Source: a virus. From it: DNA of 40,207 bases. Every line of letters begins with the position of its first letter. Within the stretch, counting starts at the first letter, position 1. The stretch covers positions 1-40,207 of the IMG/VR virus record IMGVR_UViG_3300009788_000184; one strand, given 5' to 3'. The notes beneath the pieces were generated by a model that did no database searches, was not told where the DNA came from, and worked only from the letters and a program-made list of their open reading frames with translations. A program made the position numbers and the translations under genes. Of the stretch, positions 7,255 to 40,102 are shown piece after piece.

Positions 7255-7292
7255 CAAACTTCCCTATATATACATAATTAATAAAGGACTAA
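7255..7292 (-). promoter_or_regulatory. Candidate late promoter P-cap
   Basis: On the minus strand GTCCTTTATT is followed by 18 nt and then AAGTTTG, in the same geometry as three other sites. It lies 26 nt before the ATG of the protease-capsid operon. The upstream trinucleotide differs (TTA instead of GCT). It probably drives head gene transcription. Confidence 0.75.
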
Positions 7293-7299
7293 AAAAATC

Positions 7300-7794
7300 C
7301 TAAGGTGCGTAAAATGGTGCTTTAAAGGGATTTTGTGAGACAAATTTGAATTTATGGCCCGAAAATGTGCCTGGTTTTCGGCCCGAATCTAAGTTCGCCT
7401 CAAATTTAAAAGGGTATTCGGGAGATCCTAATAATTTTTGCTGGCCGTCTGGATAGGTGTAAACGATAATGAACCTATAATCAGGCATGATGTTAAATTG
7501 ATTGCTGTTTACCGGAATATCTTTAGCAACATCACCAATTAGTGTTTGGTTATAAAGTGGACGTTGTGGGCCTGATCGCTGCCTTTCTTTAAAGTTAGTC
7601 GTTTCAACTACAGCTGCCAGCGTTAAAAAATTTTTGCCTGGTATAATAGTGATTGCATTAGTAATCGTGTTATTGCTATTTATAAACTCAGGAAATGTTA
7701 AAATCCATTGTAATGGAAGATAGGTTAAAACGGTAATTCCTGCAATATTTGGCTGATTACAGTTTGGTGAAATACTCTCTAATTGTTCTGACAT
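7300..7794 (-). CDS. Putative tail or head structural protein
   Basis: This 164-residue beta-rich protein starts SPNCNQPNIAGITVLTYLPL, an opening I associate with structural proteins of Bacteroidetes phages. Its C-terminus (SGHKFKFVSQNPFKAPFY) has the pattern of a tail-tube or baseplate protein that ends in a strand packing on neighbours. It is followed by the late promoter of the capsid operon, and the next gene upstream is the unknown 7899-8369. It is a second candidate for the major tail protein besides 3438-4001; I cannot decide between them. Confidence 0.6.
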   Translation of the reverse strand: MSEQLESISPNCNQPNIAGITVLTYLPLQWILTFPEFINSNNTITNAITIIPGKNFLTLAAVVETTNFKERQRSGPQRPLYNQTLIGDVAKDIPVNSNQFNIMPDYRFIIVYTYPDGQQKLLGSPEYPFKFEANLDSGRKPGTFSGHKFKFVSQNPFKAPFYAP

Positions 7795-7898
7795 GGTTTT
7801 ATTTTATATAATGGACAAGGTTGTTTTTATTATTTTATCAATACAATAATATCTAAAGGCTCTACAGGTTTTTTTTGATGTCAACTGCATTTTTATGC

Positions 7899-8369
7899 TT
7901 ATTTTTTCTTTATTTTCTCTCGATGCCTGAAATACATTTTTTGCAATCCTCCAAATGAAATATCATTATCATCCAAATTATAAAAATCCATAAAATTGAG
8001 GATGTTGTCTTTTATATTCCCATTAGAATGCGTTCCTTTTTTTTCAATATTATAGTCTAAAAAATTAACCAATTTTTCCTCAAACATTCCCCTGAGTAAT
8101 TGATCAATTTTATGAATTCGTTTATTGTCATAACGAAATCGATTCTCCCTCATCTGCTCATTGCTGATTTGTATTTTTAACGAATCGTTGAATGACCTTT
8201 CTTTTCGGTAACTCAGTTTTATGTTTTGCCTGGTAAAATTGTAAAAGATAATCTCTGAATAAACGCACTTTCCAATGGATATTTTAAAGGGTTCAATAGT
8301 CTTATGCATGGCTATCATTTTCTTAATGTGAGAATGAATTGGCATTTCTATAATTAACCCTTTATTCAT
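7899..8369 (-). CDS. Uncharacterised basic protein next to iteron region
   Basis: This 156-residue protein is rich in Lys/Arg and aromatic residues. Its C-terminal DNDISFGGLQKMYFRHRE has the look of an uncharacterised protein family found in Bacteroidetes phages and conjugative elements. It lies alone between the repeat-rich non-coding region 8370-8877 and a 104-bp gap, inside the late block but apparently with its own promoter (a TATATTTG box at 8436-8443). A DNA-binding or replication-initiation role at the repeats is an attractive inference, but no known DNA-binding motif is evident. Confidence 0.65.
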   Translation of the reverse strand: MNKGLIIEMPIHSHIKKMIAMHKTIEPFKISIGKCVYSEIIFYNFTRQNIKLSYRKERSFNDSLKIQISNEQMRENRFRYDNKRIHKIDQLLRGMFEEKLVNFLDYNIEKKGTHSNGNIKDNILNFMDFYNLDDNDISFGGLQKMYFRHREKIKKK

Positions 8370-8443
8370 TCAATAAGATTATAATAATGAGGTGTATAAG
8401 CAACATTTTTTTTGAGATTTTTTTTAAGAATCAGTCAAATATA

Positions 8444-8461
8444 ATACAAAAATCGGACAAA
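8444..8461 (-). promoter_or_regulatory. Shared 18-bp upstream motif, copy 2
   Basis: On the minus strand this reads TTTGTCCGATTTTTGTAT and differs by one base from the copy upstream of the terminase operon (2957-2974). A TATATTTG box (TAnnTTTG) follows at 8436-8443. It probably belongs to the promoter of the 7899-8369 gene, giving a leader of roughly 60 nt. Confidence 0.45.
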
Positions 8462-8463
8462 AC

Positions 8464-8768
8464 TGCTCAACCGGTCAACCCTGATTTTATTTTTTAATTC
8501 AACTAATTGTAAATGAAATAGTTGATTGATATTTTATGCAGTTGACCACTTTTTAGAGAATAAAGTAATCGACTCATTTACAAATAATTAACAAAAACGT
8601 GTTTGGCTCAACTGCTCAACTTATCTCAAATTTGCTCAACTGGTCAACCTTAAAGTAATATTTAGATAAATAGTATAAGTAATTGATAGTTAATATATTA
8701 TATCTATTAATTTATATTAAAGTTGAGCAGTTGACCAGTTGACCGTAATTTTACGATAAACGGTCAAG
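8464..8768. repeat. Iteron-like cluster of 8-bp TGSTCAAC repeats
   Basis: Plus-orientation copies lie at 8464-8471, 8472-8479, 8605-8612, 8613-8620, 8633-8640 and 8641-8648. Inverted copies lie at 8541-8548, 8722-8729, 8730-8737 and 8738-8745. A diverged copy (CGGTCAAG) sits at 8761-8768. Copies abut with an exact 8-bp period in blocks of two or three. The core TCAAC or its complement occurs 12 times in about 280 bp. The forward and inverted blocks face each other across an AT-rich segment. Confidence 0.8.
8650..8720. other. AT-rich candidate DNA-unwinding element
   Basis: Only 7 of 71 bases are G or C. It is flanked on one side by forward TGSTCAAC repeats and on the other by inverted ones. 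Iteron-flanked AT-rich DNA is the typical unwinding site of a replication origin. Confidence 0.45.
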
Positions 8769-8877
8769 GCTTTAAATGACTCGAAAACCGTCAAAACAAC
8801 ATTCGGACCGCATGCATGCATTTAGACATAAAAATTTTAGGAGTACAAGAGTGTAATGGAATGAAGAATAAAATTAA

Positions 8878-10629
8878 TTAAGCGATTGATGTATCACTTT
8901 GCTCTTTAGCAACGAATAAACAGGTTGATTTTGATGCCTTATTTCCTTTTAATGTAATGGAGAGCTCTTTTAGAATACCTCTCATTTGTCCAGCTGGTGA
9001 CTGTATTTTATAATTAGGAAATCGAAATCGTGACATTTCAGATACTTTATGGACTGGTAGATCTAACAACCTGGTAATTTCTTTAGATTGATTAATGGCC
9101 TCAATGAATGGCTTATAAAAGGTTTCCACCAACCCATCATCACCATCCCAGGTTAATGACAAATCACCCACTTTTCCAATACTAGGTTCTGTAGAGAATG
9201 GTGTGGCCAATGGATACGGATTACCTAAATTATTCAATTGTTTTCCTCTATAAAATGTCAGTACTAAATTATCTAAGTGATCATCTGGTCCGGAAACATC
9301 AACGAAAGGAAGTCCGAAAATATCCAATAATGTTGATGGGTAAGAATCTCCTTTTAATGGGCCTCTATACACGCCAACGGTATTGAGTGATCCTATTGGA
9401 TCAGCTGCAACAATTGGCAGAGTCGGAAAGGATGCCCATAAAGCCCAATTTACAGAAACATACTGCTGTGTAACAAACAAATACCTGTCTGGTGAAGTGA
9501 TATCTGTTTTTCCATCTCCTATAACCACTTTAGCTGGCGTATATTCAGGATTTTTAAAGAGCACATCCTTACTATCATCTGCATAACTAAAGGAGAAACC
9601 TTCAGAAAATTTTCTGGAATAAGAATACTTTGGATTTGTAAACTTGGTTAGATCCTCTTCAGGAGTGTTCAAAATTTCAGTAACAGATCTAACTTCAATA
9701 CTATTTTTATCAATGAATAAAATTTGGTTAAAATTCACCTTTAACAAATTTACAATGGCTAAACCACTCACATCAGGCAAATGGTCCTCCAGTTTAAGAT
9801 CTCTTTTTAAGGGCTGAAAATCACTCACCGGTGGATCAGCATCAACGGTATTATTATTAAACATGCTGAGCTGTTTAATGTCTGTCAATTCTAAGAAATC
9901 ACCAATAATTGTCAAGTTAACTACCTTAAATATCTCCTTTAAAACATGGGTGTATTTAATAAAAGGTATATAGGTAACTGACCAGAATATCTGTTCAATA
10001 TTAGTAGTGTCAAATGGATGGTTATATTGATAACTACCGTCTGTAAAAGGATTAATAAATCGAAACGGCCAATTGAAATCAGGAAAAGATTGCTGATCAC
10101 CCTCGTTGTATCCATAAGACTCAGACAGCACGGTTGGCCATGAATGGGTTGCGTCAATATCATCTTCATTAAATGGATCGTTTTTAAATGCCTGAAAAGA
10201 ATCCTCCTGAAAATTCCATCGATCTTCTAAAGAGGCAAAAGAATCAGGATGAAAATCATATTGGTGAATCGATTCTAAGTCCAAATCTCTGATCCTAAAA
10301 TCCTTCAATCGCTTACTGATTGCTAAATCCTCATTATTGATAAAACATGAATAGGAGTCGTTATTTGGGTTCTTAATGGACAATACACCCTGCAGCATCA
10401 AAATGCCTTCAAAGAAGATCTCACAGGGCAAATTATTAGATTCAGCCGAACTATCAATTCTTTCAACATTGTCAAAAATCGCGCTGTTTCTAGGTGTAAC
10501 TGGCAAAGTAAAGCTATAAGAGAAAGCATTGTTTAATGGATTCTGCCTAAACATTGGGTTCTCAAACTTCAATGTGATTGAAGCTTCACCAACATCTACA
10601 AATTCACCTTTTACTTTGATCTGAAGCAT
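8878..10629 (-). CDS. Tail-tip/baseplate-type protein
   Basis: This is a 583-residue beta-rich protein. The N-terminus (KGEFVDVGEASITLKFENPM, then SYSFTLPVTPRNSAIFDNVE) matches a conserved opening of large tail-tip proteins in Bacteroidetes phages, in which a short beta domain with FTLP precedes long divergent domains. It is the third large gene after the tape measure, so it is placed in the distal tail/baseplate. No enzymatic motif is seen. It is the last tail gene before the 508-bp non-coding region. Confidence 0.7.
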   Translation of the reverse strand: MLQIKVKGEFVDVGEASITLKFENPMFRQNPLNNAFSYSFTLPVTPRNSAIFDNVERIDSSAESNNLPCEIFFEGILMLQGVLSIKNPNNDSYSCFINNEDLAISKRLKDFRIRDLDLESIHQYDFHPDSFASLEDRWNFQEDSFQAFKNDPFNEDDIDATHSWPTVLSESYGYNEGDQQSFPDFNWPFRFINPFTDGSYQYNHPFDTTNIEQIFWSVTYIPFIKYTHVLKEIFKVVNLTIIGDFLELTDIKQLSMFNNNTVDADPPVSDFQPLKRDLKLEDHLPDVSGLAIVNLLKVNFNQILFIDKNSIEVRSVTEILNTPEEDLTKFTNPKYSYSRKFSEGFSFSYADDSKDVLFKNPEYTPAKVVIGDGKTDITSPDRYLFVTQQYVSVNWALWASFPTLPIVAADPIGSLNTVGVYRGPLKGDSYPSTLLDIFGLPFVDVSGPDDHLDNLVLTFYRGKQLNNLGNPYPLATPFSTEPSIGKVGDLSLTWDGDDGLVETFYKPFIEAINQSKEITRLLDLPVHKVSEMSRFRFPNYKIQSPAGQMRGILKELSITLKGNKASKSTCLFVAKEQSDTSIA

Positions 10630-10632
10630 TGA

Positions 10633-10824
10633 CTATTTTTTAACAAGAGTTTTAGTGAATGCTGTATAATCAACATTATTAGTATCCAAATAAGCAATAG
10701 CATCAGCAAAATCATCCGCTATATATAAGGAATAGTTGTCAGCATCCATGCTGACATCATGCTCTCCATTAACGAATTCATGCAATAAATTACCGGCTGT
10801 TTTAATTATGATCGTAAATTTCAT
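10633..10824 (-). CDS. Small uncharacterised tail-region protein
   Basis: This 63-residue acidic protein sits between two large tail genes with only 3-bp and 10-bp gaps, so it is surely co-transcribed. It begins MKFTIIIKTAGNLLHEFVNG and ends in a Lys pair. There is no membrane segment. I do not recognise it. Confidence 0.6.
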   Translation of the reverse strand: MKFTIIIKTAGNLLHEFVNGEHDVSMDADNYSLYIADDFADAIAYLDTNNVDYTAFTKTLVKK

Positions 10825-10834
10825 TTTATATGAT

Positions 10835-13300
10835 TTAAGTTATTAATATCCATCCAAAATCTGCCACCAATCCCTCACCAACAAATTCACCGGTCCCATT
10901 TAAAATATCTAATGCGAAAGCTGATAATGGCAAATCAGGATTACCGGACACATTTAATACGGTACCAGAAAAAGTGTAACGATTTCTAAAATTCCAGAGA
11001 TCTAAAATAATCGTATCCAGGTTATCATTTGAAATGTTATTGGATGATATGTCAATCGACTCTAGAGCAGGATGATACCCTACAATTACATTATCTAAAC
11101 TATTTCCTGCAAAGCTGACCACTTCTAATTTAATGAACTCTGAAATATCTAACTCTCCAGTGATCATGTTTCCAAATAAGCTTAAAGTAGCCACATTCCT
11201 GAGCTCACTAATGTCTATTTCTGTCACCACCTGAGAGGCTAACGTAAATAAACTGATCTCTTCTGGACATGGTAGATTATAGTCAATACTTATTGTAAAA
11301 ACACTGAATAAAGTGTCACTGATCACATTGGCACCTATAGCAAGTGGCTCTAAGGTTTCATTATTTCCAGCCTTAAAATCAACCCAACTGTCCTGTACCA
11401 CATTGGATGAAATCACAAATAAATGGCTGCCAAAATCATCCGTTTTCCAGGTGATGTGTTTATTTCTTAGGGTGACATTAAAATCATAATCCAGTATTTC
11501 ACCAGTATCCAGTGTTAATTGTGCCGTCACCCTATAAACATCCTCCTGAGTAATCTTAGGAACAATGTCCCACTGTAATGTTGGGAAAGGAGAAACCACG
11601 GTGATGATCAGATTACCGGAAGAATCAAAAACTTTTAAAGAACCCATGGCCGTAACCTTTGTTTTATTTTCATCAACAATGAAAGCAGTCATACCACAAT
11701 TAAACACCACATCTATAAGCGGTTTTCTTTTTAGATCACTCAGTTTATTTTTCAATATGGATTTCTGCAGGGTGAAAGAAAGCGAATGTAAAAATTGACG
11801 ACATTCTGTAATTTTATAGGATCCCTGATCAATAAACACTGGAATATATTCATTATCCTCAATTAAGAAAGAATTAGATTCAATCAATAGATCCTGCAGG
11901 GCAATAGCATCAACCTGTCGCATGAATCCACTCCTGGCTTCAAAATTATTTCGACTGTTTTGATCAAATTGATATTCCTGGCCATTAACAATCTGATAAC
12001 CTTTGTTTAAAATTCGATCAGAAAAACTTCGCTCTATTTTTAAATTGGTGATCCATTCTCCCCTAGTTAATAAACTCTCTGGAGAGCAAAAAGAATTTAA
12101 ATACACAATTAAACGGCCACATTCATGCACCCTACAATCCAACAAAAATGTTTTTATCTCGCTTACGATATCTAAGTTAGCATTGATGATCCAAACCTCC
12201 CACTTAAACACCTCTTTTGCCGGATTGATTGCTGCAATATTTAATTGGGTGTAACCAATAGGAAGGACCATCCTCTGCCACCTATCCAAATTCGTGACAG
12301 CTGACAGCTGATCAGCTGATGTGGTTCCATCTTTATAGTAAGCTTTGTGAACCACCTTAAAATCATCTAATTTGTTGGTATAATTTATCCATGTCAACCA
12401 ATCCGGTTGATCAACATGTAATGTTTTAAAATTAGGCGACCAAGTGAGGAATTTACTTTTTAATGAAATAAAGGAGAATGGATCAATTTTAGGAAAATCC
12501 TCCACACTCACACCACCACAATGAGCCAACCTCAGGCAATCATATTTCCATTCACTGTTTTTACCATCGGTCGCTTCAGCTACTCTGATATAATAAGTTA
12601 AGGTTATATTTTCCTCAATGGGTAAACCGGCATTTATATCAGCTGGCAAAGGTGGCTCTAAAAAACTATTGGTTAGCTCTGCATGAAGCGCAGCTGAAAC
12701 ATCTATTTCTAATTTTCCTGCATCATCTGGAGCAGCTGAAGCAGACATTATTTTTTCAAACACATCAGGATCATTAAAATCCTGCTTATACAATTCAGCC
12801 AGAATAAAAATGTTATTGCGATCAGGTTTTAAAAAATCAGTTGATATTATTTCTGATACCCGACCAGAATTATCAGCGTATCCCGTTGGAACCAAATCAG
12901 CAATCGCCTCCTTAGCAGTCGCTGTGATTACTGTTGGACTATCTAAATTTAATGTGTAATGTGTTTTTAAAATAGGGTTTTTTTGCATCTCAGCTAACAC
13001 ATCGATTACCCAATTGGCCAGTGTAGGATTTGGTCCACCTGGTACTTCAGATTTTAATTCGGATCCCTTTCCATCAGGATTGAGCACATAGTCAAATTGA
13101 ACGTTAATTGATAGTTTACTGATGGGATCAATAAAACTAAAAACCATGTACTTATCTACCTCTACTAAGTCGGTAAAAGTGAACGTGATGAATGGAAAGA
13201 CAAAAGGAGTATCGTATAATTTATTTGTTTGTAAAGAATAGTTAATTGGGTTCTTTACAAAAGATATTTCAACCGGATGTTCTATAATTTCTACACTCAT
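10835..13300 (-). CDS. Large tail protein with C-terminal leucine-rich repeats
   Basis: This 821-residue protein has a beta-rich N-terminal ~250 residues resembling tail-tip proteins of Bacteroidetes phages (opening VEIIEHPVEISFVKNPINYS). The last ~140 residues form an LRR stretch: TEIDISELRNVATLSLFGNM, LDISEFIKLEVVSFAGNSLD and LESIDISSNNISNDNLDTI follow the LxxLxLxxN pattern, and a final NVSGNPDLPLSAFALDI closes it. LRR domains bind proteins or glycans, so this part may contact the host surface. It sits two genes after the tape measure, with 3 bp separating it from the gene before. Confidence 0.75.
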   Translation of the reverse strand: MSVEIIEHPVEISFVKNPINYSLQTNKLYDTPFVFPFITFTFTDLVEVDKYMVFSFIDPISKLSINVQFDYVLNPDGKGSELKSEVPGGPNPTLANWVIDVLAEMQKNPILKTHYTLNLDSPTVITATAKEAIADLVPTGYADNSGRVSEIISTDFLKPDRNNIFILAELYKQDFNDPDVFEKIMSASAAPDDAGKLEIDVSAALHAELTNSFLEPPLPADINAGLPIEENITLTYYIRVAEATDGKNSEWKYDCLRLAHCGGVSVEDFPKIDPFSFISLKSKFLTWSPNFKTLHVDQPDWLTWINYTNKLDDFKVVHKAYYKDGTTSADQLSAVTNLDRWQRMVLPIGYTQLNIAAINPAKEVFKWEVWIINANLDIVSEIKTFLLDCRVHECGRLIVYLNSFCSPESLLTRGEWITNLKIERSFSDRILNKGYQIVNGQEYQFDQNSRNNFEARSGFMRQVDAIALQDLLIESNSFLIEDNEYIPVFIDQGSYKITECRQFLHSLSFTLQKSILKNKLSDLKRKPLIDVVFNCGMTAFIVDENKTKVTAMGSLKVFDSSGNLIITVVSPFPTLQWDIVPKITQEDVYRVTAQLTLDTGEILDYDFNVTLRNKHITWKTDDFGSHLFVISSNVVQDSWVDFKAGNNETLEPLAIGANVISDTLFSVFTISIDYNLPCPEEISLFTLASQVVTEIDISELRNVATLSLFGNMITGELDISEFIKLEVVSFAGNSLDNVIVGYHPALESIDISSNNISNDNLDTIILDLWNFRNRYTFSGTVLNVSGNPDLPLSAFALDILNGTGEFVGEGLVADFGWILIT

Positions 13301-13303
13301 AAT

Positions 13304-13876
13304 CTAAGGATTAACTAAAATTGACCAATCATTTGGATCTTTTGGACCAGCCTGATCAGCCCATTTGGTATCATCTAATGTACAATCGAAAAAGTTTTTA
13401 AACTGGAAAAATACTTGGACACCTACATATTCAAAATTTGGACCGCGAGCAATTGAAACATGGAAATCTTTAATTGCATTTTGACTTTTATACCACATTG
13501 AATTTTCATCGGCTGCCTGCGTCTGACTATCAAACTTTATTCGCTTAATGATCTCATTAGCAATTTTTTCACATTCAGTTATTTTCTCTTTTTCATCTTC
13601 AAAATCTTTGTCCTTAGTTTTATGTACAATCATAAAACCACCATCATAATTGTTCAAATTATCTGCTCCCTGCAGACCAGGAGAATAGGCATAATTTACC
13701 AGGATAAAATTGAATGTTTTTTCAACGGTCAAAGATCTCAAACCAGACAAAACTTCCTCAATGTTAATCCGAAAAAAAGCTTTTTTCTTAGGTACTGCAT
13801 TTAGATCATGATCGATGTCCACATGTTGAGTGGCAAGATCTTCAAAGTAATCCGTATATGATGTATAATCTGACAT
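13304..13876 (-). CDS. Putative tail protein following the tape measure
   Basis: This 190-residue soluble protein begins SDYTSYTDYFEDLATQHVDI and has alternating beta and helical segments, with a Trp/Phe-rich C-terminus. Similar short proteins follow the tape measure in Bacteroidetes phage tail modules, where they are usually left unnamed. It is 15 bp after the tape measure and 3 bp before the LRR tail protein. A distal-tail or initiator role is inferred from position only. Confidence 0.65.
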   Translation of the reverse strand: MSDYTSYTDYFEDLATQHVDIDHDLNAVPKKKAFFRINIEEVLSGLRSLTVEKTFNFILVNYAYSPGLQGADNLNNYDGGFMIVHKTKDKDFEDEKEKITECEKIANEIIKRIKFDSQTQAADENSMWYKSQNAIKDFHVSIARGPNFEYVGVQVFFQFKNFFDCTLDDTKWADQAGPKDPNDWSILVNP

Positions 13877-13891
13877 AGTTAATTTTTATAG

Positions 13892-16800
13892 TTATTCAAC
13901 ATCTCCTTTAATCTCTTCAATTTCTAATTGTTTCGCAGTTATTTGGTCCACATCTTCATCGCTCATAACGATAAAAATACCTTTGGCCAAAATAGCATTC
14001 AAGTTATTTACAGCTGCAGTTAATTCAGCTTTTATTGCTAAATCTGAGCTGGTTGCTGCGTTTTCTTCTACCTGATCAATGTCTGGTGTTTCAGTCTGAT
14101 CAATGTTACCTGTTTCAGCTGTAAATCCACCTTGCTGAAATTGTCTACCGGTTCTAATGGCTTCAATAATATTTACCTGATCAGCGACCATAGGATTTCT
14201 TAAAAGGTGTCCAGGTATAAAATACTCAGGTTCCGTTTCATTCATCAACATGATCCGCGGACCTCCTTTCATGACTCCTCCTGATCGATCACTACTAAAT
14301 TTTGCATTGTATGACTTTCCATCATCAGCTCCTATAGCTTTCATGGTACCACCACCACCTTTAAATTGAGGAAGTGGCTGAGAGGAAATGATGGCAATTT
14401 GAGCAATACCTTCAGCAACGGCTAAAGCAATCAAAGGGATATTTGCTGGAGGGGGTGCTGCTCCTGCAGCTTTTATCACAGCTAAAGCAGCATCAATAGT
14501 GGCTTGAATAATAGCAGCCTGTTGCTGATCCTTAGCTGCCTTTGTTTTAATTTTAGCTTCCTTTTTTTGCTTTTTCTCTTCTAATTTTGCTGTTGCTGCA
14601 TCAAACTCTTCCTGGCTGATCAAACCAGCGTCCAATCTTTGTTGAAGGATTTCTGCCTCTTTTTTTGCTTTCTTATCTAATTCAGCTAGCTCTTTATCAG
14701 CTGCAATTTGCTGGAATTGTGCAATGGTACCAATCCCATTTTGAACAAAACTAATCGCTGCATCTGCCACTTGTTGCCGTAATGCTTTTTGTTTGGCTGC
14801 CTGTGCTGTATCTAGATCTAGTTCCTGTTGCCTGAATTCTGCATTGACTTGGGCCACACGTGCATCAAATTCATCCTTTGAGATCAAATCATCTTCACGC
14901 TGTTGTTCTAATGCTAACAACTCAATTTCGCGCTGAGCTTCAATGTTATCTTTTATGGCCTGAATAACTAGAGCCTCTTGATCTCTTCTGGCTCTAAAAT
15001 CATTTTGATTGATCTGATCTAATTTTTGTTGCTGGAGAATCACTTCAGCTTCTGCAATGGATTGAACAGTCCTCAGAACAGCTTCATTTTCCTTTCGTGA
15101 CTCTGCAGCTTGTTTTTTCAAACTCTCCTGCTGCAGCTTTAATTTTCCTGCCTGAAATTCTTTTTCTTTGATCAGCAATAAATCATCCAATTGCTCCTGT
15201 GCCTGCTTTCCAATATCTCCTTTGGTAGTTGCTAATTTTTCTGCAGCTGCTATTTCTTTCGCAAATTTCTTGTCCAGAGATTGCTCCAATTTGGCCAATT
15301 CCTTTTCATCATCCGTTTTCAGAATCTCAATGGCCTCCCTATTTTCTAATTCGATTCTGAATTTATCAACACCAGCTCGTAATTTTTCTAAATTCTTTAG
15401 GGCCTTGTCAGCATTTTTAGAACGTTCTTTTGCTGTTTTACCACTGACAGCTGCTAATTTTGCTTCAATAGCAACAATCTCATTTCCTACTGCAATAAAC
15501 TCAGCTGATCCAATCTGGAGCTCTTCCTGTGCTTTTTTTCTTTCTGCCAGCTCAGCATTTAAGGAGGCAATGGTTTCAATTTGTTTGACAGTTGCATCAG
15601 TTACATCTTCAGCGGTTTGTTCAGTTTCTTCACCAGTTTTTTGCTGAATCCCTGCTAATTTTTGATATTTTTTAACAGCTTCCTCCGCTGATAATCCTGC
15701 TTTAATGTATTCGGCAACTACTTTTTTAGCACTTTCACGGCTTTGTAATTGAGCTTTATCCACATTTTTAAAAGCATCATCTAAGGCCCTTACTTTAGTT
15801 ATTGCTAATTCCAATTCTGGAGGATTCAATGAATCAGCGATGTTGGTGCCTGCGATCTTATCCACAGCACCCAAAACAAATTGAAGCGGTTTTAGCAGTT
15901 GTGAAAATCCTCTAATAACATTATTGAGGGCTGACCTCCATAAATCATCAAAGGATAGAGCTCCATTATTTATATCAGTAATAAAGTTTAAAAATCCAGT
16001 TGCTGTTTGCACTACACCTCTAAGGCTCTGAGAAATGACTCCAGATCCATCTTCAAAACTTAGGACAGCACCCTCATAGGCTGATTGTGCGATTTTAGTA
16101 TCTCCTGCCAGGTTATCCAGCATGGTTTCTGCTGTTCTTCTAGCCACTCCATCAACATCATTTAAAGCTACTGAGAGTTTTTCTATTGATTCGGTTCCAT
16201 CTAAAAAAGTGGCAAAAGCAGCAACCGATCTTTTATCTGTTAATTGTAAAGCCTCACCTAAATCCGTTCCCTCAGCTTCCAACTTTTTTAACCCAGCCAC
16301 TAAACTAGGCAGATCCTTAACTGGCGCGCCTAACGATTTTGCCAATTTACCGTTACTATCTGCCAGATTTAACAAGATATTTCTGGTTGCTGTTGCTGCG
16401 CTCGATGCATCAAATCCAGCATCTGCCAAACTTCCTAAAAGGGTAGTAGTATCCTCTAATCCAAATCCTAATTTTGATGCTACCGGTGCAATGGTAGACA
16501 TCGATGCATTTAGCTTTTCGAAATCAAGCGCACTATTTATAGTTGAAGCAGACAATACATCAACTACACGACCAGTTTCAGAGGCATCTAATCCAAAGGC
16601 TTTTAATGTTGACCCGACTAAAGCAGCTGTTGGAGCTAATTCTGATCCCATGGCTGCAGCACCATTTAAAACACCTTCAGTCATTTCCAGAATATCCTCA
16701 GTTGGGAATCCTAATTTGGCTAATTCTGTCTGTAATCCTGCTACCTCTGTAGCTGTAAATGCTGTAGATGCACCAAGCTCTTTAGATTGATCAGTCAACG

Positions 16801-30613: not shown

Positions 30614-30640
30614 CTACAAATATACTACAAAAATACTACA
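30614..30640. promoter_or_regulatory. Early-operon promoter with ACTACAA operators
   Basis: CTACA elements occur at 30614, 30625 and 30636, with the exact 11-bp period of the array near the regulator gene. On the minus strand they contain two TAnnTTTG-type boxes, TATATTTG (30617-30624) and TATTTTTG (30628-30635). The nearer one predicts a start about 16 nt before the first early ATG. Operator and promoter coincide, so bound repressor would switch the early block off. Confidence 0.7.
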
Positions 30641-32414: not shown

Positions 32415-32417
32415 AAT

Positions 32418-32720
32418 TTATTTTTTTACGTAACCTAAAATAACATTCAGGTTTTTGTTAATTTCTTTAAACTCCTGATCGCTTTTTGTAATATATTCCT
32501 TCATGTCATTCTGCGTTTTTTCAATCCGCTTATGGATAATTAACTCAGATTCTTTTTGCTTTAATTCAGCATTTTTAAGACGAATATTCACTGCCTTATT
32601 ATTAGATCTAATGTTAAAAATCATCCCAGCAATAGTTAAGGCTATTGTTAAAATATAAATAACATCCTTTAGGGTGAACGTGACATCGCTCATTCCATCA
32701 ATTGTGGCTTGTAATAACAT
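32418..32720 (-). CDS. Small membrane protein with coiled-coil tail
   Basis: In this 100-residue protein an N-terminal hydrophobic helix (FTLKDVIYILTIALTIAGMI) is followed by a charged coiled coil (KLKNAELKQKESE-type heptads). The plan resembles phage holin accessory proteins such as XhlA, though in reverse order. It lies in the lysis cassette between two other membrane proteins. Confidence 0.65.
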   Translation of the reverse strand: MLLQATIDGMSDVTFTLKDVIYILTIALTIAGMIFNIRSNNKAVNIRLKNAELKQKESELIIHKRIEKTQNDMKEYITKSDQEFKEINKNLNVILGYVKK

Positions 32721-32723
32721 ATT

Positions 32724-32939
32724 TTAATTGTCTGGTGGTGTATCTTCTGAATCACCCATTGTTAATCCTCCCTTAGTGATTATTCTAAGAATTAAATTAG
32801 CAATTAAAGTGATCAATGCAATCCATTTTACAGGTATGTGAAAACCTAAATCAATGAGTTCCGGAAGAATTATTGAAATTGCTATTAAAATGTTGACCCA
32901 AATTGTTTTTGATTTCCAAAAAGCTTTTTTCTTATTCAT
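32724..32939 (-). CDS. Putative holin
   Basis: The 71-residue product has two membrane helices: KTIWVNILIAISIILPELID (residues ~11-30) and KWIALITLIANLILRIITKG (residues ~38-58), with a short acidic tail. The opening with a WKSKTIWVN phrase recurs in small holin-like proteins of Bacteroidetes phages. It opens the lysis cassette after the fibre gene. Function inferred from size, topology and context. Confidence 0.75.
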   Translation of the reverse strand: MNKKKAFWKSKTIWVNILIAISIILPELIDLGFHIPVKWIALITLIANLILRIITKGGLTMGDSEDTPPDN

Positions 32940-32956
32940 CGTATATCAATTTAATT

Positions 32957-35344
32957 TTATGGTACTGTTGTAACTCCTGTTAATATTCCTCCAGTAAATG
33001 TCATTGTTGCAACATCACCGGAACCACCACCGCCAAAAGTATAAGTATTAGTTTGTCCACTTGCACCAGCTACTTTATAAATTCCAGTAGTATTAATATT
33101 TCCTTGAACGTCTAATTTTTCCGTTGGATTTGCTGTACCTATTCCTACTTCATTTCCAGATTCTAAATAGAGTGTATTGTTTGCTACTCCGTTCTCCATA
33201 CAAAAAGGAGAGGATCCTCCAGTATCATCTACAATTGAAAATAAGGTACCATTATTTACAAAACGCCAAGTCCTCGCACTCGATCCGGTTCTCCTTATTT
33301 GAAGTATAGCGTTGGCACTATCTTTGTCTATAGTAAAAACAGAAGCAGCACCCTTAAACATCATAGAAATACCTTTCCCTGGTTCTGGTGTAAGTGAGAC
33401 ATTTCCTGTTTCGTCTAAAGCAAGTCTAAAACCATCCGTTGATGTATGCCCTGTACTAATATTTGTTATCTGAAATGACGGTGAAATACTATCCGATATA
33501 TGTAAAATTGATTTAGGCGAACTCTGTCTTAATCCAAAAAAATTATTGGTATCATCCCAAAATAAATTACTACTATCTGTCATAATTCCTGCTTCACTAT
33601 CTGCGAAAGTTATTCCTCCAATTTCTAAGGTTGCTGCCGTAGTATGTGTAAACCTTCGCCATGCAGTGCCGTTATAAAAATTAGGACTATTACCGACCGT
33701 TTCATAAATTGTTAATCCTGCTGGTGGTGTTGGTATTGCGTCCCTTTCTGTCGCGTTCATTCTAGGAGGCAATAGTCCCTGAGTTGTAGAGGTTAAATCC
33801 AATATAGCTGCTGCAATGGGAGCGCCTCCTATTCCTATGCTTGCCCCAGTAAATATTAAATTATTTGAGGCCATTGTAACGGTTCTTAATCCTGTCAATG
33901 TTAAATCTGTATTTCCAAGATTTGAAGTATCTGTCAAGTATGATATTGTTCCACTTTCCGCTTTAAGTGTAGCTGTAAAATCTGAGGCACTTGGAGTGTG
34001 AATTAACAACATTTCGCCAGCCAGTCCAGCATTAAATCCGATTTGATTGACATAAGCTGTGTTATTGGTTTTCCCATCAATATCAAGTCCTCCTAAAAGA
34101 ACTGAATTAATGACGCTGGTATTAACGGATCCAGACTGACTGGAGATGACAGTCGGAAATTGAACAGCCAAACCACCAGGAGTAGGACTAGCTGAGTTAT
34201 CATAAATAGCAATAGAACTGGATCCAACTGTTAAAGTGGCACTAGTGGCATTGATAAAGGAAAAATTAGCTCCAAAACCAAATTGGGCTGTTGTGTTGTC
34301 ACCATAAAACCAAGCTTTTAAAAATGCTCCATTATCATTGGTTAGATCAAATATATTATCGACTCCATCCCTTAAATTCAATTGAACGTCACCATTTAGT
34401 GAGTTAAAAGTCTGCCCATTTAGCGTGGTGTTTCCAATAGTTAATACATCGCTCAAACTTTGTGCTCCTGTAATATCAGACAATAAAGCAACCGTTCCTG
34501 GCTCATCTTTAAAGATTATGATGTTGTCTGATGTCGCTGTTGTATGAGTTAATCTTGTTTCAAAAGCAGCACCTGAATTGAAAGCAAATTGATTGGCATA
34601 AGCAGTATTATTGGTTTTAACTATTATCCCCAAACCTCCTAAGGCAGTTGAATTGATTATACCAGTATTAAATGTGGTGTTTTGAGAAGTCACATTCCCT
34701 GGAAAGTTGGGTAAATTTTGTGTCGTAAAAGAACCAGCATCATTATCATCTACTGAAATTATTCCCACTTTTGAAAATCCTCCTTTAACAAATTCTAGTG
34801 TGGCCGTGTTATCTGTTAATGATAATTTAGCGCAATCATCGACAAAGAAATTAGCAGTACTCCCCATAAAAATAGATTGCGTTGCTCCAAAATCGGCCAT
34901 TGTAAAAAAGGATTGCCCATGGCCAAATCCTATAAATCCGGATGTTAAGTCTAAAAACGATTCTGTCCCAACACCTAAAGAACCATGCACACCGGTGAAT
35001 AAACTCAGTTGATTGTTGACTCCTAAAAAACGTGGATTGAAAACAGCGGTCCCATTTAAAGCCTCTATCGTTTGACCGTCACTCATTGTATTGCCGTTGG
35101 CTATTGCACGGCTTAAACTTTCATTGGTCAACGCTTTAGAAGCAGTACTCAGATTATCTGTGCTGGTAACGAAAGTTGTCAGTGTCCAAAATCGGGTTTC
35201 TGCTTCATCAAAAATGATAGATCCTGCAGGCAATGACTTGTAAAAGAAAGTCAATGAATCAGGAACGTGTAAAATGGTTCTAGGGATCTGAGCAAAGCTG
35301 CTCACTGAAATTAATAATGCTGCTATAAATAATATTTTTTTCAT
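32957..35344 (-). CDS. Tail-fibre-like protein with N-terminal signal peptide
   Basis: This 795-residue protein begins with a textbook Sec signal peptide, MKKILFIAALLISVSSFAQ, with cleavage expected after Ala18-Gln19. Two similar ~200-residue beta blocks follow (each runs from a LNG..F..R or Q start to a FKDEPGTVALLSDIT / LKAESGTISYLTDTS end), then LLPPRMNATERDAIPTPPAG, and finally LDVQGNINTTGIYKVAGASG. The last two motifs are hallmarks of Bacteroidetes tail-fibre or surface proteins. An exported fibre is odd for a virion part; it may instead coat the infected cell. It is followed by the lysis genes. Confidence 0.8.
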   Translation of the reverse strand: MKKILFIAALLISVSSFAQIPRTILHVPDSLTFFYKSLPAGSIIFDEAETRFWTLTTFVTSTDNLSTASKALTNESLSRAIANGNTMSDGQTIEALNGTAVFNPRFLGVNNQLSLFTGVHGSLGVGTESFLDLTSGFIGFGHGQSFFTMADFGATQSIFMGSTANFFVDDCAKLSLTDNTATLEFVKGGFSKVGIISVDDNDAGSFTTQNLPNFPGNVTSQNTTFNTGIINSTALGGLGIIVKTNNTAYANQFAFNSGAAFETRLTHTTATSDNIIIFKDEPGTVALLSDITGAQSLSDVLTIGNTTLNGQTFNSLNGDVQLNLRDGVDNIFDLTNDNGAFLKAWFYGDNTTAQFGFGANFSFINATSATLTVGSSSIAIYDNSASPTPGGLAVQFPTVISSQSGSVNTSVINSVLLGGLDIDGKTNNTAYVNQIGFNAGLAGEMLLIHTPSASDFTATLKAESGTISYLTDTSNLGNTDLTLTGLRTVTMASNNLIFTGASIGIGGAPIAAAILDLTSTTQGLLPPRMNATERDAIPTPPAGLTIYETVGNSPNFYNGTAWRRFTHTTAATLEIGGITFADSEAGIMTDSSNLFWDDTNNFFGLRQSSPKSILHISDSISPSFQITNISTGHTSTDGFRLALDETGNVSLTPEPGKGISMMFKGAASVFTIDKDSANAILQIRRTGSSARTWRFVNNGTLFSIVDDTGGSSPFCMENGVANNTLYLESGNEVGIGTANPTEKLDVQGNINTTGIYKVAGASGQTNTYTFGGGGSGDVATMTFTGGILTGVTTVP

Positions 35345-35345
35345 C

Positions 35346-35594
35346 TTAAAGTTGTATAATGTTTAAAGTTGTTCCTGCTGGTGCTGCAGGATTAAATGTG
35401 ATCTGCTTATCTCCTGTTTTAGTAAATGGTCTAACACTTAACGCTTGCTGTTCAAAAATTAACAAACGATCTACTTTGACTGGTTTCAATAAATTAAATA
35501 TGGCCTGAGGAGCAGCTAATTCAACACCTGGGTTAATCGTTGGTTTTTCAACTTTATCAAAAGTCGCTGTAATTGGATTGAATTTAAAACTCAT
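35346..35594 (-). CDS. Fibre-associated small protein
   Basis: The 82-residue product (FKFNPITATFDKVEKPTINP, later LSVRPFTKTGDKQITFNPAA) resembles the small beta proteins encoded just before fibres in Bacteroidetes phages. It lies 2 bp before the fibre gene start, and is co-transcribed. It may anchor or trimerise the fibre; inferred from position. Confidence 0.6.
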   Translation of the reverse strand: MSFKFNPITATFDKVEKPTINPGVELAAPQAIFNLLKPVKVDRLLIFEQQALSVRPFTKTGDKQITFNPAAPAGTTLNIIQL

Positions 35595-35598
35595 CTAG

Positions 35599-35940
35599 TT
35601 AAGCTTTAGTTATAGTTAAAATGTTATCATTCGCGTCATAAGTCAATGTAAGTGTTGCGACTACTGTTCCGCCTGCTCCACCTAAACGATAAACCACTGT
35701 TTCGATCTCTCCATCTCCATTGCCTCCCACTTTATAGGCTAATGTAATGTGATCATGAGGTGGGATGTTAAAACCTGGTATTGGTGCCGGTCCTGCTTCT
35801 GTTTTTAATGACGGTAGTCCATCACTACCCTCTACTGCAACTGCTTCAATTATTTCATTACCACTAACTGCTTTACCGGATTGTGCCTTAGTTTTTACTT
35901 CAGTTGCTGAATTCGTGTTTAATCTATCGCCTGCTGCCAT
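35599..35940 (-). CDS. Uncharacterised structural-region protein
   Basis: This 113-residue Ala/Gly/Thr-rich beta protein with a disordered N-terminal third ends in LTLTYDANDNILTITKA. It is the first gene behind late promoter 35957-35994, which puts it in the fibre transcription unit. A fibre-base or decoration role is possible; the family is not recognised. Confidence 0.6.
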   Translation of the reverse strand: MAAGDRLNTNSATEVKTKAQSGKAVSGNEIIEAVAVEGSDGLPSLKTEAGPAPIPGFNIPPHDHITLAYKVGGNGDGEIETVVYRLGGAGGTVVATLTLTYDANDNILTITKA

Positions 35941-35956: not shown

Positions 35957-35994
35957 CAAATTTAGAACCCTTAAATGAGTAAATAAAGGACAGC
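35957..35994 (-). promoter_or_regulatory. Candidate late promoter P-fib
   Basis: On the minus strand GCTGTCCTTTATT is followed by 18 nt and TAAATTTG, here a full TAnnTTTG box. It lies 17 nt before the ATG at 35940, which leaves about 10 nt of leader. It drives the fibre and lysis genes. Confidence 0.8.
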
Positions 35995-36894
35995 TTATTT
36001 TCTTTTTGTACCGCGATTTGCTTGACGGTTTTTGATTTTCTGTAAATTGGCCTGCTCTCTTCTTTTGCGTTCTAATTCAGATTTATGATCAGCTCTCCTG
36101 GACATTTCTACAAAGACGGTAAACCAGTTGGTATCAGATGTTTTGTCAAAATCACCAAATTTATCTCCAGAAAGCTCCAGTAATGATCCGGCCCATCCAT
36201 AGTCATTGCCTGTTTTCTTAACATTCGTTTTTACTTCCTGAAATAAGTTCTCAAACACCACTACATTGGTATTGCGAAAACCCCAATAAAAATAAAAGAT
36301 GGCCCATTTATACTTTACCGGTAAATATTTTTGAAAATGTTTTGCCAATAACTTAGTCCTTTTTTCATTGAATGGTTTTCGTTTGTCACCATTCCAGAAT
36401 TTATTTTTTTTGGCCTCATCCATTTCAAACAATCCCATTTTTGGACGGTACAAAGTAGCCACCAATTCCTCCAATAGATTTGTTTCACCTTTGGCAATTT
36501 TCATGTATAAGGTATCGGCCACAATCATCTCATTAAAAGAGCTACTATATAGTTTTGCTTCAGGACCAATGTATTTTCTACCAAAAAGCCTGAAATGAGG
36601 AAGGATCTGTGTATTTAGATCAGGAGCTTCATTTAAAAATCCCATCAATTCATAAAATGCCACTGCCACCTGATCTAGATCTAATTTAGCAAAAGTCCGG
36701 CCGTTTACTTTCAATAAGGATTTTAAGACAAAGCATTTAGAGATATAATAAGCGTTGGACAATTCTTCCTCATCAGTTTGGCTGTAAATCAGTGGCCAGT
36801 ACTTACCAATTGTGAGCAGCTGCTTTTTATCTAATCCATCCCAGGTAATAGGTACTAATACCTCTTTTCCATCTATCTTAACATGGTTGCTCAT
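35995..36894 (-). CDS. Uncharacterised protein of the portal operon
   Basis: This 299-residue protein has a helical, aromatic-rich centre (KWAIFYFYWGFRNTNVVVFE) and a basic C-terminal tail (RREQANLQKIKNRQANRGTK). Proteins of this sort occur in Bacteroidetes phage structural operons without an assigned role. It overlaps the next gene upstream by 4 bp and precedes promoter 35957-35994. A tail-assembly chaperone is one guess, but weak. Confidence 0.6.
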   Translation of the reverse strand: MSNHVKIDGKEVLVPITWDGLDKKQLLTIGKYWPLIYSQTDEEELSNAYYISKCFVLKSLLKVNGRTFAKLDLDQVAVAFYELMGFLNEAPDLNTQILPHFRLFGRKYIGPEAKLYSSSFNEMIVADTLYMKIAKGETNLLEELVATLYRPKMGLFEMDEAKKNKFWNGDKRKPFNEKRTKLLAKHFQKYLPVKYKWAIFYFYWGFRNTNVVVFENLFQEVKTNVKKTGNDYGWAGSLLELSGDKFGDFDKTSDTNWFTVFVEMSRRADHKSELERKRREQANLQKIKNRQANRGTKRK

Positions 36895-37247
36895 TTAACT
36901 TTCAATCGATAATTAGCGTACCTGGTAAAAATGGTCCATAGTGATAAAGTCAGCACTAAAATAAAGAGCCACAAACGTTCATCAAAAAATTGTGAAAGTG
37001 TTTCCGGAAGGTTGTAAAATAATGGTCCTAAAAAAGGAATCAAAACCATTTCTGAAAGTAACAATGGAAAACGTCCCTTTTCATAAATGGTGTAGCTAAT
37101 ATTATTCATTGCTGTTACCTGGTCCTCAAATAAAAACCATTCAGCTGCAGTGAATCTTCTTTTAGATTTATCGGCATAACGGACCACCACATAATCGATA
37201 CGAGCGATGTATTCACGTTGTTTTTCAATATCAATTTGTACTTCCAC
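36891..37247 (-). CDS. Two-helix membrane protein
   Basis: This 118-residue protein has a soluble N-terminal ~60 residues followed by two hydrophobic segments (residues ~62-80, SEMVLIPFLGPLFYNL; and ~92-110, LWLFILVLTLSLWTIF). It overlaps the next gene downstream by 4 bp. Membrane proteins inside a portal operon are uncommon; it may be an accessory or exclusion protein. Function unknown. Confidence 0.65.
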   Translation of the reverse strand: MEVQIDIEKQREYIARIDYVVVRYADKSKRRFTAAEWFLFEDQVTAMNNISYTIYEKGRFPLLLSEMVLIPFLGPLFYNLPETLSQFFDERLWLFILVLTLSLWTIFTRYANYRLKVK

Positions 37248-37289
37248 CTATAATGTTGATTAAAGACTGGACCGTTATAAATCCTATGA

Positions 37290-37297
37290 CAAACTTA
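37290..37297 (-). promoter_or_regulatory. Possible TAnnTTTG box upstream of 36891-37247
   Basis: The 124-bp gap 37248-37371 holds TAAGTTTG on the minus strand, 43 nt before the ATG at 37247. No matching upstream TTG at the usual distance is seen, and the late 10-mer is absent. Low confidence. Confidence 0.3.
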
Positions 37298-37371
37298 ATT
37301 GGCCCAGCCTAATAATTAATACATGAGTTGATAAAAATACAAAATTAATACAATAGTGTAGTGTGTTTATA

Positions 37372-38370
37372 TTAGATGTTGTGGAAACCTGTGTGTCCCT
37401 CTTTTTCAACATCACATTCCTCTGGATCTTCCGGAGGATTAACGGTGATATCATCTCTATATGTTGGATAATCATCCAAATTATTATTCAATAACTCCTT
37501 TAATTTATCGATCCATTGATTCCCTCTTTCTAAAGCATGTCGAATTTTTACAGAGATCTGATTGTCCTTTGCCGTTTTCTTTTCCTTCACCTCACTTTCA
37601 GATCCTTTTCGCTCCACATACATTACCCCCTGAGAGTTGAACTTCACCCAGCTTTGAACACTCACATCATGAATTGTGAATTGTGCGATCGCTTTACGAA
37701 TCAAATTAACTGCTTCCAATTCAGCTGTAGTGAATGCCTGTTTTGCTAAAATCTTTGCTTTTAAATGATCAAAGAAATCCCGTCCGATGCATGCCAATAT
37801 ATATAGACATTCCACATCTATAATGGTAGTTCTTAATGCATGGAAGGTTTGTCTGCCTTGGTGAATAGGGTAATGTAACTCAAATTCTGCAGCTGTATTG
37901 ATGAACAGCTCCTTATTTTTAGTATAACCAGGATTATTGTTCACCCATGTTGGATAATCTACCTCATTATCCTCTAAAAACTCTAACAGGTATTCTAAGT
38001 TATCATATCCGGTTTGAAAAGCATCTGTTTTTAAATCTTCTATCTGTCCGGAGAATGCACTTTTATAATTATCATTTTCCTTTCTGGAGATTCCTGAATC
38101 ATCTATTGAAACTGAGGCTAATGGTATATACTCTCCCCAGGCAAAATTGGCCAATGATGGTTGAATTTCATCGATTAAAGCCTGTTCCTGAGCTGTAGGA
38201 ACACCGGCATGAGCTGCTACAATACTAGTAGTTAATACAGGACCTAACCATGGTTGCAAATATTTTCTAAGTGCATGAGAAATTTTTGGAGCCAATGAAT
38301 CAATCTCCATCGCTTTGGTAACGGATACCTGTTCTTTAAATTCTGATATGTCGGTAAATAATTTTGCCAT
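37372..38370 (-). CDS. Putative head-tail adaptor protein (DUF6712-like)
   Basis: This 332-residue protein follows the portal with a 1-bp TAATG overlap. The helical N-terminal half (AMEIDSLAPKISHALRKYLQ, then WGEYIPLASVSIDDSGISRK and a KSAFSGQ region) matches, as far as I recall, the DUF6712 family of Bacteroidetes phages, which is placed at the head-tail joint. The C-terminal ~50 residues are acidic and proline-rich, likely disordered. Function is inferred from synteny. Confidence 0.65.
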   Translation of the reverse strand: MAKLFTDISEFKEQVSVTKAMEIDSLAPKISHALRKYLQPWLGPVLTTSIVAAHAGVPTAQEQALIDEIQPSLANFAWGEYIPLASVSIDDSGISRKENDNYKSAFSGQIEDLKTDAFQTGYDNLEYLLEFLEDNEVDYPTWVNNNPGYTKNKELFINTAAEFELHYPIHQGRQTFHALRTTIIDVECLYILACIGRDFFDHLKAKILAKQAFTTAELEAVNLIRKAIAQFTIHDVSVQSWVKFNSQGVMYVERKGSESEVKEKKTAKDNQISVKIRHALERGNQWIDKLKELLNNNLDDYPTYRDDITVNPPEDPEECDVEKEGHTGFHNI

Positions 38371-39740
38371 TATGTTACAGTTGGTTCTTCTTTTCCGTTT
38401 GGTTCTTTATCCGTTGTAGTAGAGAATTGATGTGAAAATCCAAAATGAATGTCTTTATCCCATCCGTTAAAATGTTTCACCATGTACAATGGTTCAAATA
38501 AGATTTTCGATTCCGCTTGCGTTAATAAAATAGAATTATTGAATGCTTCCCTTTTGTCTGATCCACTACCGGCTCCCATTTTTCCCCCTGCAGGCTGAAG
38601 TCCTGCTAGCGATGGATCTATTCCTAAAGCCCTGGTAATTTTTGCATCTGCGTGATCAGCTGCAGGAACAAAATCACCCTCCTTAAATTTACTATCGATC
38701 ACCACAATCTCAAAACCTGGAATTGGTTTTTCCGTGATGGGATCAATTGCAAAATGAGTAATTAAACTTTTGCCTGCATTTTTAATGCCAGTTAGCCACT
38801 TATCCATTTCTGCCAACTTCTCATCGATGATAGCTTGCCGTTGCTTATCATTTTTTAGATCCCATTTTGGATACATTTTCGACCAATAATCGTAAGGAAT
38901 TTTAATGTGATATTTAATGTTTAATTGATTGTTATTGATGGAATTCAAAATAATAGGGATAGAGCTCTCATAATCCAACCAACCATTTTCATTATAAAGT
39001 GCTGCATGTGGAGGCTTTGCATAAATTTGCCGTCCTGGAGATGGAAAATAAGTCTGCCAGGCAAACTTATGTTTTGATCCAGATTTCCTGGCAATTGTTT
39101 CTTTATTTCTTTCCCTGGCTGAGATGAATGGAATTAAATCAGCATCCGTTTTTTGGATACTGATGTCAGTTACAAATTTTCCAGAATAACCCAGGTTAGG
39201 AATTAAATTACTTTCTTCAGCAACTTGTAACCTGGAGAATTCTGCCTCTAAATGTAAAAGATCAGTTACTCTGGTATTTCCTTTAGTTAATAAAAATTCT
39301 GAAAAAGCATTGCCATAAAATTTTAAATCCATCAGCTGCTCAATCATGAATCGATCAATGTTTGAATTAACAAAGAATTCATCAATCTTATCATCCTGAA
39401 AAAATTCAATTATTACAGCCCCTTCAACAATTTTCTTTTTAAAATATCGAACACCATCCCCCCAAATTAGAGCCACTGCTTTTACAATTAAAGGAAGAGC
39501 GATTGCAGAATCTTCTAATTTTTTTCTAACTTCAGTTGGATAACGATTATTCAATCCCCAATCATAAAACTCATTACTTTGATCATCATCATCGACTTCT
39601 AAAAAAGCTGGTTTTGCTTGTTTGGCTGCAGCGTCTGAAGAGATCATAGTGACTAGTGCACTATTAGGAAGTAAGGCTGTTGTGGTTCTATTTCCATCCG
39701 TATCTAGACCCCTGAATTTTTGAATTTTATTATTACTCAT
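38370..39740 (-). CDS. Portal protein
   Basis: This is the ring through which DNA enters and leaves the head, 456 residues. Portal features: an N-terminal arm, YGNAFSEFLLTKGN near residue 147, and a stem/clip region with FPSPGRQIYAKPPH, YHIKIPYDYWSKMYPKWD near 290 and PSLAGLQPAGGKMGAGSGSD near 385. This phrase order is typical of portals of Bacteroidetes phages. It overlaps its upstream neighbour by 4 bp and its downstream neighbour by 1 bp. Disordered Gly/Glu-rich C-terminus. Confidence 0.9.
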   Translation of the reverse strand: MSNNKIQKFRGLDTDGNRTTTALLPNSALVTMISSDAAAKQAKPAFLEVDDDDQSNEFYDWGLNNRYPTEVRKKLEDSAIALPLIVKAVALIWGDGVRYFKKKIVEGAVIIEFFQDDKIDEFFVNSNIDRFMIEQLMDLKFYGNAFSEFLLTKGNTRVTDLLHLEAEFSRLQVAEESNLIPNLGYSGKFVTDISIQKTDADLIPFISARERNKETIARKSGSKHKFAWQTYFPSPGRQIYAKPPHAALYNENGWLDYESSIPIILNSINNNQLNIKYHIKIPYDYWSKMYPKWDLKNDKQRQAIIDEKLAEMDKWLTGIKNAGKSLITHFAIDPITEKPIPGFEIVVIDSKFKEGDFVPAADHADAKITRALGIDPSLAGLQPAGGKMGAGSGSDKREAFNNSILLTQAESKILFEPLYMVKHFNGWDKDIHFGFSHQFSTTTDKEPNGKEEPTVT

Positions 39741-40060
39741 AAGTAAACCATTTTTCCATTGAATTCAACGATCAAATCAATGTGACATTTTTTTATTAAC
39801 GCTGTTTCAATTCCATTAGCATAAACTTTTAAACTACGAGTAGCATGTTTAAAATGCTTAGGGTTTCTTGAATTTTTTTTGGGTGCTGCACCAGGTAAAT
39901 TTTCTGAAACTTTTTTTTCTTTCTTAACATTCTGCTTTGCCTGGTACTCTTTAATAATTCCACCGGTATTCCTCTTTTTATCAAAACTCACAAATTTGAT
40001 TTTAAAGAGCTCACCAGATTTCATGATCTTCAACACGTCTGTTAAGCTGATTAAATTCAT
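39737..40060 (-). CDS. Small protein preceding the portal
   Basis: This 107-residue basic protein opens with SLTDVLKIMKSGELFKIKFV and has FDKKRNTGG, a pattern seen in a small protein placed directly before the portal in Bacteroidetes phages. That resemblance includes the N-terminus and supports the start at 40060. It ends 4 bp inside the portal gene (ATGA). Only 4 nt separate its ATG from the late promoter box, so the mRNA may be leaderless. Function unknown. Confidence 0.7.
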   Translation of the reverse strand: MNLISLTDVLKIMKSGELFKIKFVSFDKKRNTGGIIKEYQAKQNVKKEKKVSENLPGAAPKKNSRNPKHFKHATRSLKVYANGIETALIKKCHIDLIVEFNGKMVYL

Positions 40061-40064
40061 AATG

Positions 40065-40102
40065 TAAATTTCTTTTAAAAACTTTTACAAATAAAGGACA
40101 GC
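40065..40102 (-). promoter_or_regulatory. Candidate late promoter P-port
   Basis: On the minus strand GCTGTCCTTTATT is followed by 18 nt and AAATTTA. Geometry is the same as at three other late sites. The box ends 4 nt before the ATG at 40060, as at P-tail. It should drive the portal operon. Confidence 0.75.

Follow-up and report, generated by a model that had tools for sequence, protein, structure and literature searches.

The late activators Mu C, P2 Ogr and the RinA/ArpU-type regulators are small phage proteins, each of which switches on every late operon of its phage; in Gram-positive phages the gene, like that of the candidate described below, lies just before the head and packaging genes. 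In phage T4, the middle promoters carry a MotA box and are served by sigma appropriation through MotA and AsiA (PMC2988021). The primary-sigma promoters of Bacteroidota consist of a -7 element, TAnnTTTG, and a -33 element, TTTG (PMC7366714, PMC9723704), of which the -7 box sits at -12 to -5 (PMC9723704). The analysis reported here points to a class of late promoters in Bacteroidota phages that combine the host -7 box with a phage box starting with GTC and that are read by a phage activator of about 160 aa, a reading to which we give a probability of roughly 0.6.

The window, that is, the whole stretch of DNA that was analysed, is a complete IMG/VR virus record of 40,207 bases in which essentially all genes lie on the minus strand. 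The gene families seen in it are terminase, capsid protein, protease, tape measure, portal, adaptor, endolysin and primase; integrase is not among its annotated families, and neither a tRNA nor an exact terminal repeat of more than 10 bases was found in the window. The 10-mer GTCCTTTATT occurs in exactly four copies, all on the minus strand, and exactly 18 nt separate it from a second box in every copy. This pattern count bears out an earlier sequence-only reading of the window, which had described four minus-strand copies with the same 10-mer and the same spacer, and it corrects two details. The second box, given there as AAATTTG, has this form in two of the four copies (at 36 kb and 17.7 kb), the others being AAATTTA (40 kb) and AAGTTTG (7.3 kb). 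The first box had been made to begin 3 nt upstream of the 10-mer, thereby covering GCTGTCC, of which GCT precedes the box in three copies. When up to three mismatches were allowed, the full pattern matched four times versus 0.68 expected, and none of 100 shuffles gave four. All four sites are intergenic, the intergenic share of the genome being 5.5%. Very few 10-mers of the window have at least four copies that are all intergenic; GTCCTTTATT is among them and, with its own complement, is the only one limited to a single strand.

The four sites are very probably late-promoter elements. Late promoter 1 (40065-40099, minus strand; box 40090-40099, -7 box AAATTTA at 40065-40071) heads the portal/adaptor operon (35995-40060, minus), which contains a small head gene, the portal and adaptor genes and others, and whose first ATG (40060) stands 4 nt past the -7 box. 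Late promoter 2 (35957-35991, minus; box 35982-35991, -7 box (T)AAATTTG at 35957-35963) heads the fibre-lysis operon (30652-35940, minus), with a 795-aa probable fibre protein, an endolysin and a membrane-anchored lysis-type gene. Late promoter 3 (17651-17685, minus; box 17676-17685, -7 box AAATTTG at 17651-17657) heads the tail operon (8878-17646, minus), which includes a neck-like gene, the tape measure and other tail genes; again the ATG (17646) is 4 nt past the -7 box. Late promoter 4 (7255-7289, minus; box 7280-7289, -7 box AAGTTTG at 7255-7261) heads the protease-capsid-terminase operon (91-7229, minus), which encodes the head protease, the capsid protein, the terminase and others. The early block (17749-30594, minus), with the primase, an HNH endonuclease and small genes, is without boxed promoter. 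Gene annotation thus agrees with the earlier placement of the sites at the heads of the portal, fibre-lysis, tail and head units and of none in the early block. The early block also encodes a small Fis-type HTH_8 protein (29800-30033). This protein was considered as a common reader of the box and rejected, as no counterpart was found in 13 other phage records tested.

Compared with the sigma-A promoters of Bacteroidota, these promoters share the -7 box TAnnTTTG. Unlike them, they lack the -33 TTTG with its variable spacer and carry instead GTC[C/T]TTT, or a lineage variant of it, at a fixed 31 nt; GTC-box promoters are also restricted to phage late operons, unlike those of the primary sigma. 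Judging from the placement of the -7 box, the box, with GTC as its start, extends from about -39 to about -30, which is the region of the host -33 element. As in the T4 MotA system, a phage box replaces the upstream host element while the host core box is intact, the distance is nearly fixed, and a small phage activator, here a candidate, would serve a whole temporal class. The differences concern the host sigma, the box sequence and the genes served, which are late and not middle. Moreover, the GTC box spans about -39 to -30 whereas the MotA box is centred at -30, and its sequence, GTCCTTTATT or GTC plus a lineage variant, departs from the MotA consensus (a/t)(a/t)(a/t)TGCTTtA.

The sequence-only reading had left the choice between an activator and an alternative sigma factor. 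A phage or host alternative sigma reading both boxes would account for two conserved boxes at a fixed distance, which are typical of sigma recognition. We regard it as highly improbable, for the downstream box is the TAnnTTTG of the primary sigma, a Pfam scan found no sigma domain among the early proteins of the window, and no sigma-like family is common to all box-bearing phages. Since the -7 box keeps the host consensus and no sigma-like early protein is present, an activator is favoured.

A first set of relatives was gathered by homology of terminase, protease and portal, without use of the motif. Box-bearing relatives include Leef_1, Ingeline, BT-TP2, laban6-1, 6H, Porphyromonas phages and Bacteroidales prophages, most of them obtained via protein homology. 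The terminase of the Polaribacter phage Leef_1 is 40% identical to that of the window, and GTCCTTTTTT stands in this phage before the portal operon (2476), the neck-tape measure genes (10521), the protease (30639) and the terminase unit (34591), and also at 1809. Four GTCCTTTT sites were found in Mea-Yong924-1, three sites in the gut phage MT835542, four in Bacteroides phage BT-TP2 and four in another gut contig, while Ingeline_1 has GTCCTTTTAA at several late genes. Bacteroidales prophages, found via the candidate activator, have GTCCTTCC or GTCTTTT boxes ahead of the protease and other genes, with unchanged spacing. No GTCCTTT occurs on the late strand at the promoter position in the two Flavobacterium phages laban6-1 and 6H, which have GTCACAAC or GTCTTAAA before late genes with the same or nearly the same geometry. 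In some promoter copies of Leef_1 and 6H the TTG is 1 nt closer, a point against the reading preferred below. Boxes mostly have CCTTT as their 3' half, with ACAAC, TTAAA or GTTTA in some lineages. The motif is therefore kept before the same late genes in relatives, including phages gathered without it, as the earlier reading had anticipated, and its interpretation of the sites as late-promoter elements in which a host-like -7 box is combined with a box of the phage's own at the -33 position gains support from this comparison. As far as sequence comparison goes, the window's box represents one lineage's version of a GTC-box family that is much wider, and the class is spread over many distantly related phage lineages of Bacteroidota.

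When the window's portal, protease, tape measure and activator were searched singly against IMG/VR, nothing was found; matches there came via the exact motif pattern and two-sequence alignments. The exact pattern had 26 matches in IMG/VR, many of which are not demonstrated late promoters. Among the contigs with the exact motif, homologues of the protease, capsid protein or terminase of the window are encoded, and the site lies before the protease or behind the capsid gene. Eight near-identical copies (L006, L007, L009, L011, L015, L021, L023 and L029) have no protein in common with the window and were discarded as probable chance matches. In L031, L008 and L035, the box comes immediately after a terminator-like hairpin with a T-run (CACTC...GAGTGG-T7 in the Leef_1 example), so that the end of one late unit is the beginning of the next. 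The phage record L032 (MZ447863.1) was deposited with the cyanobacterium Microcystis as host; its genes are related to those of Bacteroidota phages and its promoters have a Bacteroidota-type box, and it may in truth infect an associated Bacteroidota bacterium.

The geometry was also assessed in a positional test on 356 upstream regions from 22 phages and prophages, with every TTTG near a start codon taken as an anchor. In this set of related, not fully independent sequences, in which a minority of the phages had been found by the motif, GTC occurred exactly 31 nt upstream of TTTG 36 times, as compared with a mean of 2.0 at other offsets and counts of 2 and 0 at the neighbouring offsets 30 and 32. 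GTC was the only one of the 64 trinucleotides enriched more than 1.9-fold at offset 31. With so sharp a peak and so varied a range of hosts, chance is hardly a sufficient explanation. For 69 listed sites, conditional on GTC and in some cases on TTTG, the -7 part was T59 A73 n n T89 T97 T81 G89 (percent), and the sites selected on GTC alone show the -7 consensus as well. Because of this conditional selection, the box columns of the 69-site table are not independent evidence, which the positional test is. The box, its geometry, its distribution and the intact -7 box are thus matters of observation at the sequence level, and we hold the GTC-box late promoter class to be real with high confidence.

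Searches for phages outside this sample were consistent with this. With the candidate activator as query, tblastn retrieved 18 Porphyromonas phage records, and the two phages examined have four GTCCTTT-N24-TT(T/C)G sites each versus 0.04 and 0.07 in simulation, and these sites lie ahead of late genes on the late strand. A terminase-based IMG/VR scan yielded seven new contigs, of which six encode the activator and the seventh is a 14-kb fragment. Clear boxes are present in five of the six activator-bearing contigs and a single plausible one in the sixth. G014, G015, G016 and G018 have GTCC boxes, located at most about 160 nt from the activator match in the first three; G017 has four GTCGTTTA sites, one of them just behind the activator, and G019 is the contig with one plausible GTCGTTTA site. 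No GTC-31-TT(T/C)G site was present in the upstream regions of four Bacteroidota phages without the activator.

In nine host genomes (Bacteroidales, 29.7 Mb), GTCCTTT-N24-TTTG had 30 matches versus 31 for the reversed control. The boxed promoter is therefore not a general host promoter class. This result weighs on two explanations in which the host alone supplies the reader. If the box were an extended or strong host element used by the host sigma without any activator, timing would be set via copy number or derepression. The host-consensus -7 box fits such an element, as do the TTTG or TTT held by some boxes at the -33 place (GTCCTTTG in L040). It is nevertheless unlikely, as the motif is not enriched in the host genomes, all lineages retain GTC, the TTT part being swapped for ACAAC or TTAAA in laban6-1 and 6H, and the box is used neither for the activator genes nor in the early block. 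Exploitation by the phages of a host-encoded transcription factor would be in line with a GTC core common to phages of many Bacteroidota hosts, yet the boxes differ between the two Flavobacterium phages and the GTCCTTT version is not in excess in host genomes, which makes this possibility very unlikely.

The candidate for the phage activator is encoded at 7899-8369 on the minus strand, inside the stretch covered by the sequence-only reading. It has 156 aa and a pI of 9.7 and belongs to no Pfam family. The family to which it belongs (about 155-195 aa) was first recognised from gene order, and a search with a 7-member profile found it in the other four complete box-bearing phages (E-values 1e-15 to 3e-6). 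Wherever the contig of a box-bearing phage extends over the head region, a homologue is encoded, and the family is absent from the four unrelated Bacteroidota phages examined. L040 and G003 have the box and lack both the activator and the protease-capsid segment; their contigs are therefore probably incomplete there. No member matched Pfam, NCBIfam or the PDB. In PHROGs, two members fall in a family of unknown function, and the BT-TP2 member was deposited as a 'transcriptional regulator'. Pfam, PDB sequence and fold searches gave no MotA match for the candidate, no counterpart of AsiA came to light, and the candidate has no family match with Mu C, P2 Ogr or the RinA/ArpU-type regulators, whose binding sites and positions are also different.

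A confident structural model of a prophage homologue (pLDDT 85.9, pTM 0.80) shows a strand, two helices, strands and three C-terminal helices. Its only significant match among viral models is a Leef_1 protein (TM 0.62, 16% identity) of the same length as gp39, and this structural agreement with the Leef_1 member speaks for the family. Against the PDB, matches were insignificant, with weak homeodomain-like ones, and no recognised DNA-binding family was found. The model of the window protein is poorer (pLDDT 65.5), its C-terminal helices being mostly at 85-93. None of 22 activator genes has a late box at 31 nt upstream, the head operon behind the activator gene usually has one, the activator lies near the primase instead in L032 and L033, and nearly all members are basic. 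The missing late box, the position near the primase and the basic character suggest a regulator rather than a structural protein. It should be kept in mind that a gene common to box-bearing phages need not be a regulator, since a core of structural genes is common to all of them, and the sequences are too few for a covariation of activator residues with the box to appear. On balance, the family has probably been correctly identified as the reader of the late box. Ahead of the activator gene, the window and a few prophages have a GTC that precedes a TTTG by 19 nt; autoregulation via this operator-like site was rejected, as only 4 of the 22 activator genes have it.

A different phage regulator could read the box of real late promoters, for instance the LuxR/GerE-type protein that many of these phages encode near the primase. 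GerE-type proteins are encoded by contigs L008, L028 and L014 and by L032, L033, laban6-1, 6H, Ingeline and G017, with a homologue in Leef_1. However, no GerE match was found in the window, BT-TP2, G014, G015, G016, G018, G019 or either Porphyromonas phage, each of which has the box (a plausible one in G019). In addition, the GerE-type proteins have at least two unrelated architectures, and their recognition helices differ among phages with the same box. The LuxR/GerE type, for which the window and at least seven further box records have no match, was rejected as box reader on distribution, and reading by another phage regulator is on the whole quite unlikely.

The preferred reading is thus activation by the 7899-8369 family. 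The protein of about 160 aa would be produced ahead of the late genes, its own promoter having no box. It would then bind the GTC box and assist host RNA polymerase, loaded with the host's primary sigma, in reaching the -7 box, so that all late operons would be switched on together. The simplest model would be a class-II activator or a sigma-appropriation scheme as in T4 MotA. The role of this protein as reader, its contact with sigma and the late timing are what we infer. It is about an even chance that the class is ruled by a new-fold activator family that appropriates the host primary sigma, with a box specificity (GTC plus CCTTT, GTTTA, ACAAC or TTAAA) diversified between lineages.

In the open full-text literature, no paper was found that combines GTCCTTT, phage and promoter, nor any description of a late-promoter class or late activator of Bacteroidota phages. 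The word 'promoter' does not occur in the paper describing Leef and Ingeline (PMC8776804). The host transcription machinery is unusual in Bacteroidota, and the single-base precision of the spacing allows late operons to be recognised in the sequences of isolated phages, prophages and metagenomic contigs. A testable function is gained for a family so far labelled hypothetical, also in Porphyromonas and Bacteroides phages, and promoter/activator pairs with several box versions are possible genetic tools for gut Bacteroides.

A start codon was scored for 52 boxed promoters. In 12 of these, including two of the window, the ATG lies exactly 4 nt past the -7 box. This position is the expected +1, and many late mRNAs should therefore be leaderless. 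In F. psychrophilum, only 5.5% of mRNAs are leaderless (PMC9723704).

Several other sequence elements were observed. Upstream of the activator gene, a noncoding region of about 500 bp (8370-8877) contains repeated GTTGACC/GTTGAGC units in both orientations, ten of which were counted. These repeats are iteron-like and could possibly mark a replication origin. Gaps of similar size precede the activator gene in Leef_1, G001 and G002, and GTTGAGA repeats are enriched in the noncoding DNA of laban6-1. A noncoding gap of the early block has four TTGTAGT repeats at 11-bp steps (26305-26362), and one further copy lies at 30623-30631, at the probable early promoter. In the region of 17646-17663, a perfect 20-bp palindrome, ATACTACAAATTTGTAGTAT, covers the -7 box of late promoter 3. 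The TTGTAGT repeats or the palindrome may possibly be the operator of a second phage regulator. Finally, in BT-TP2 and its prophage relatives (L058, L060, L064-L067 and L035), the activator gene is directly followed by a conserved GTCCTTTTTT that has no TTTG at 31 nt.
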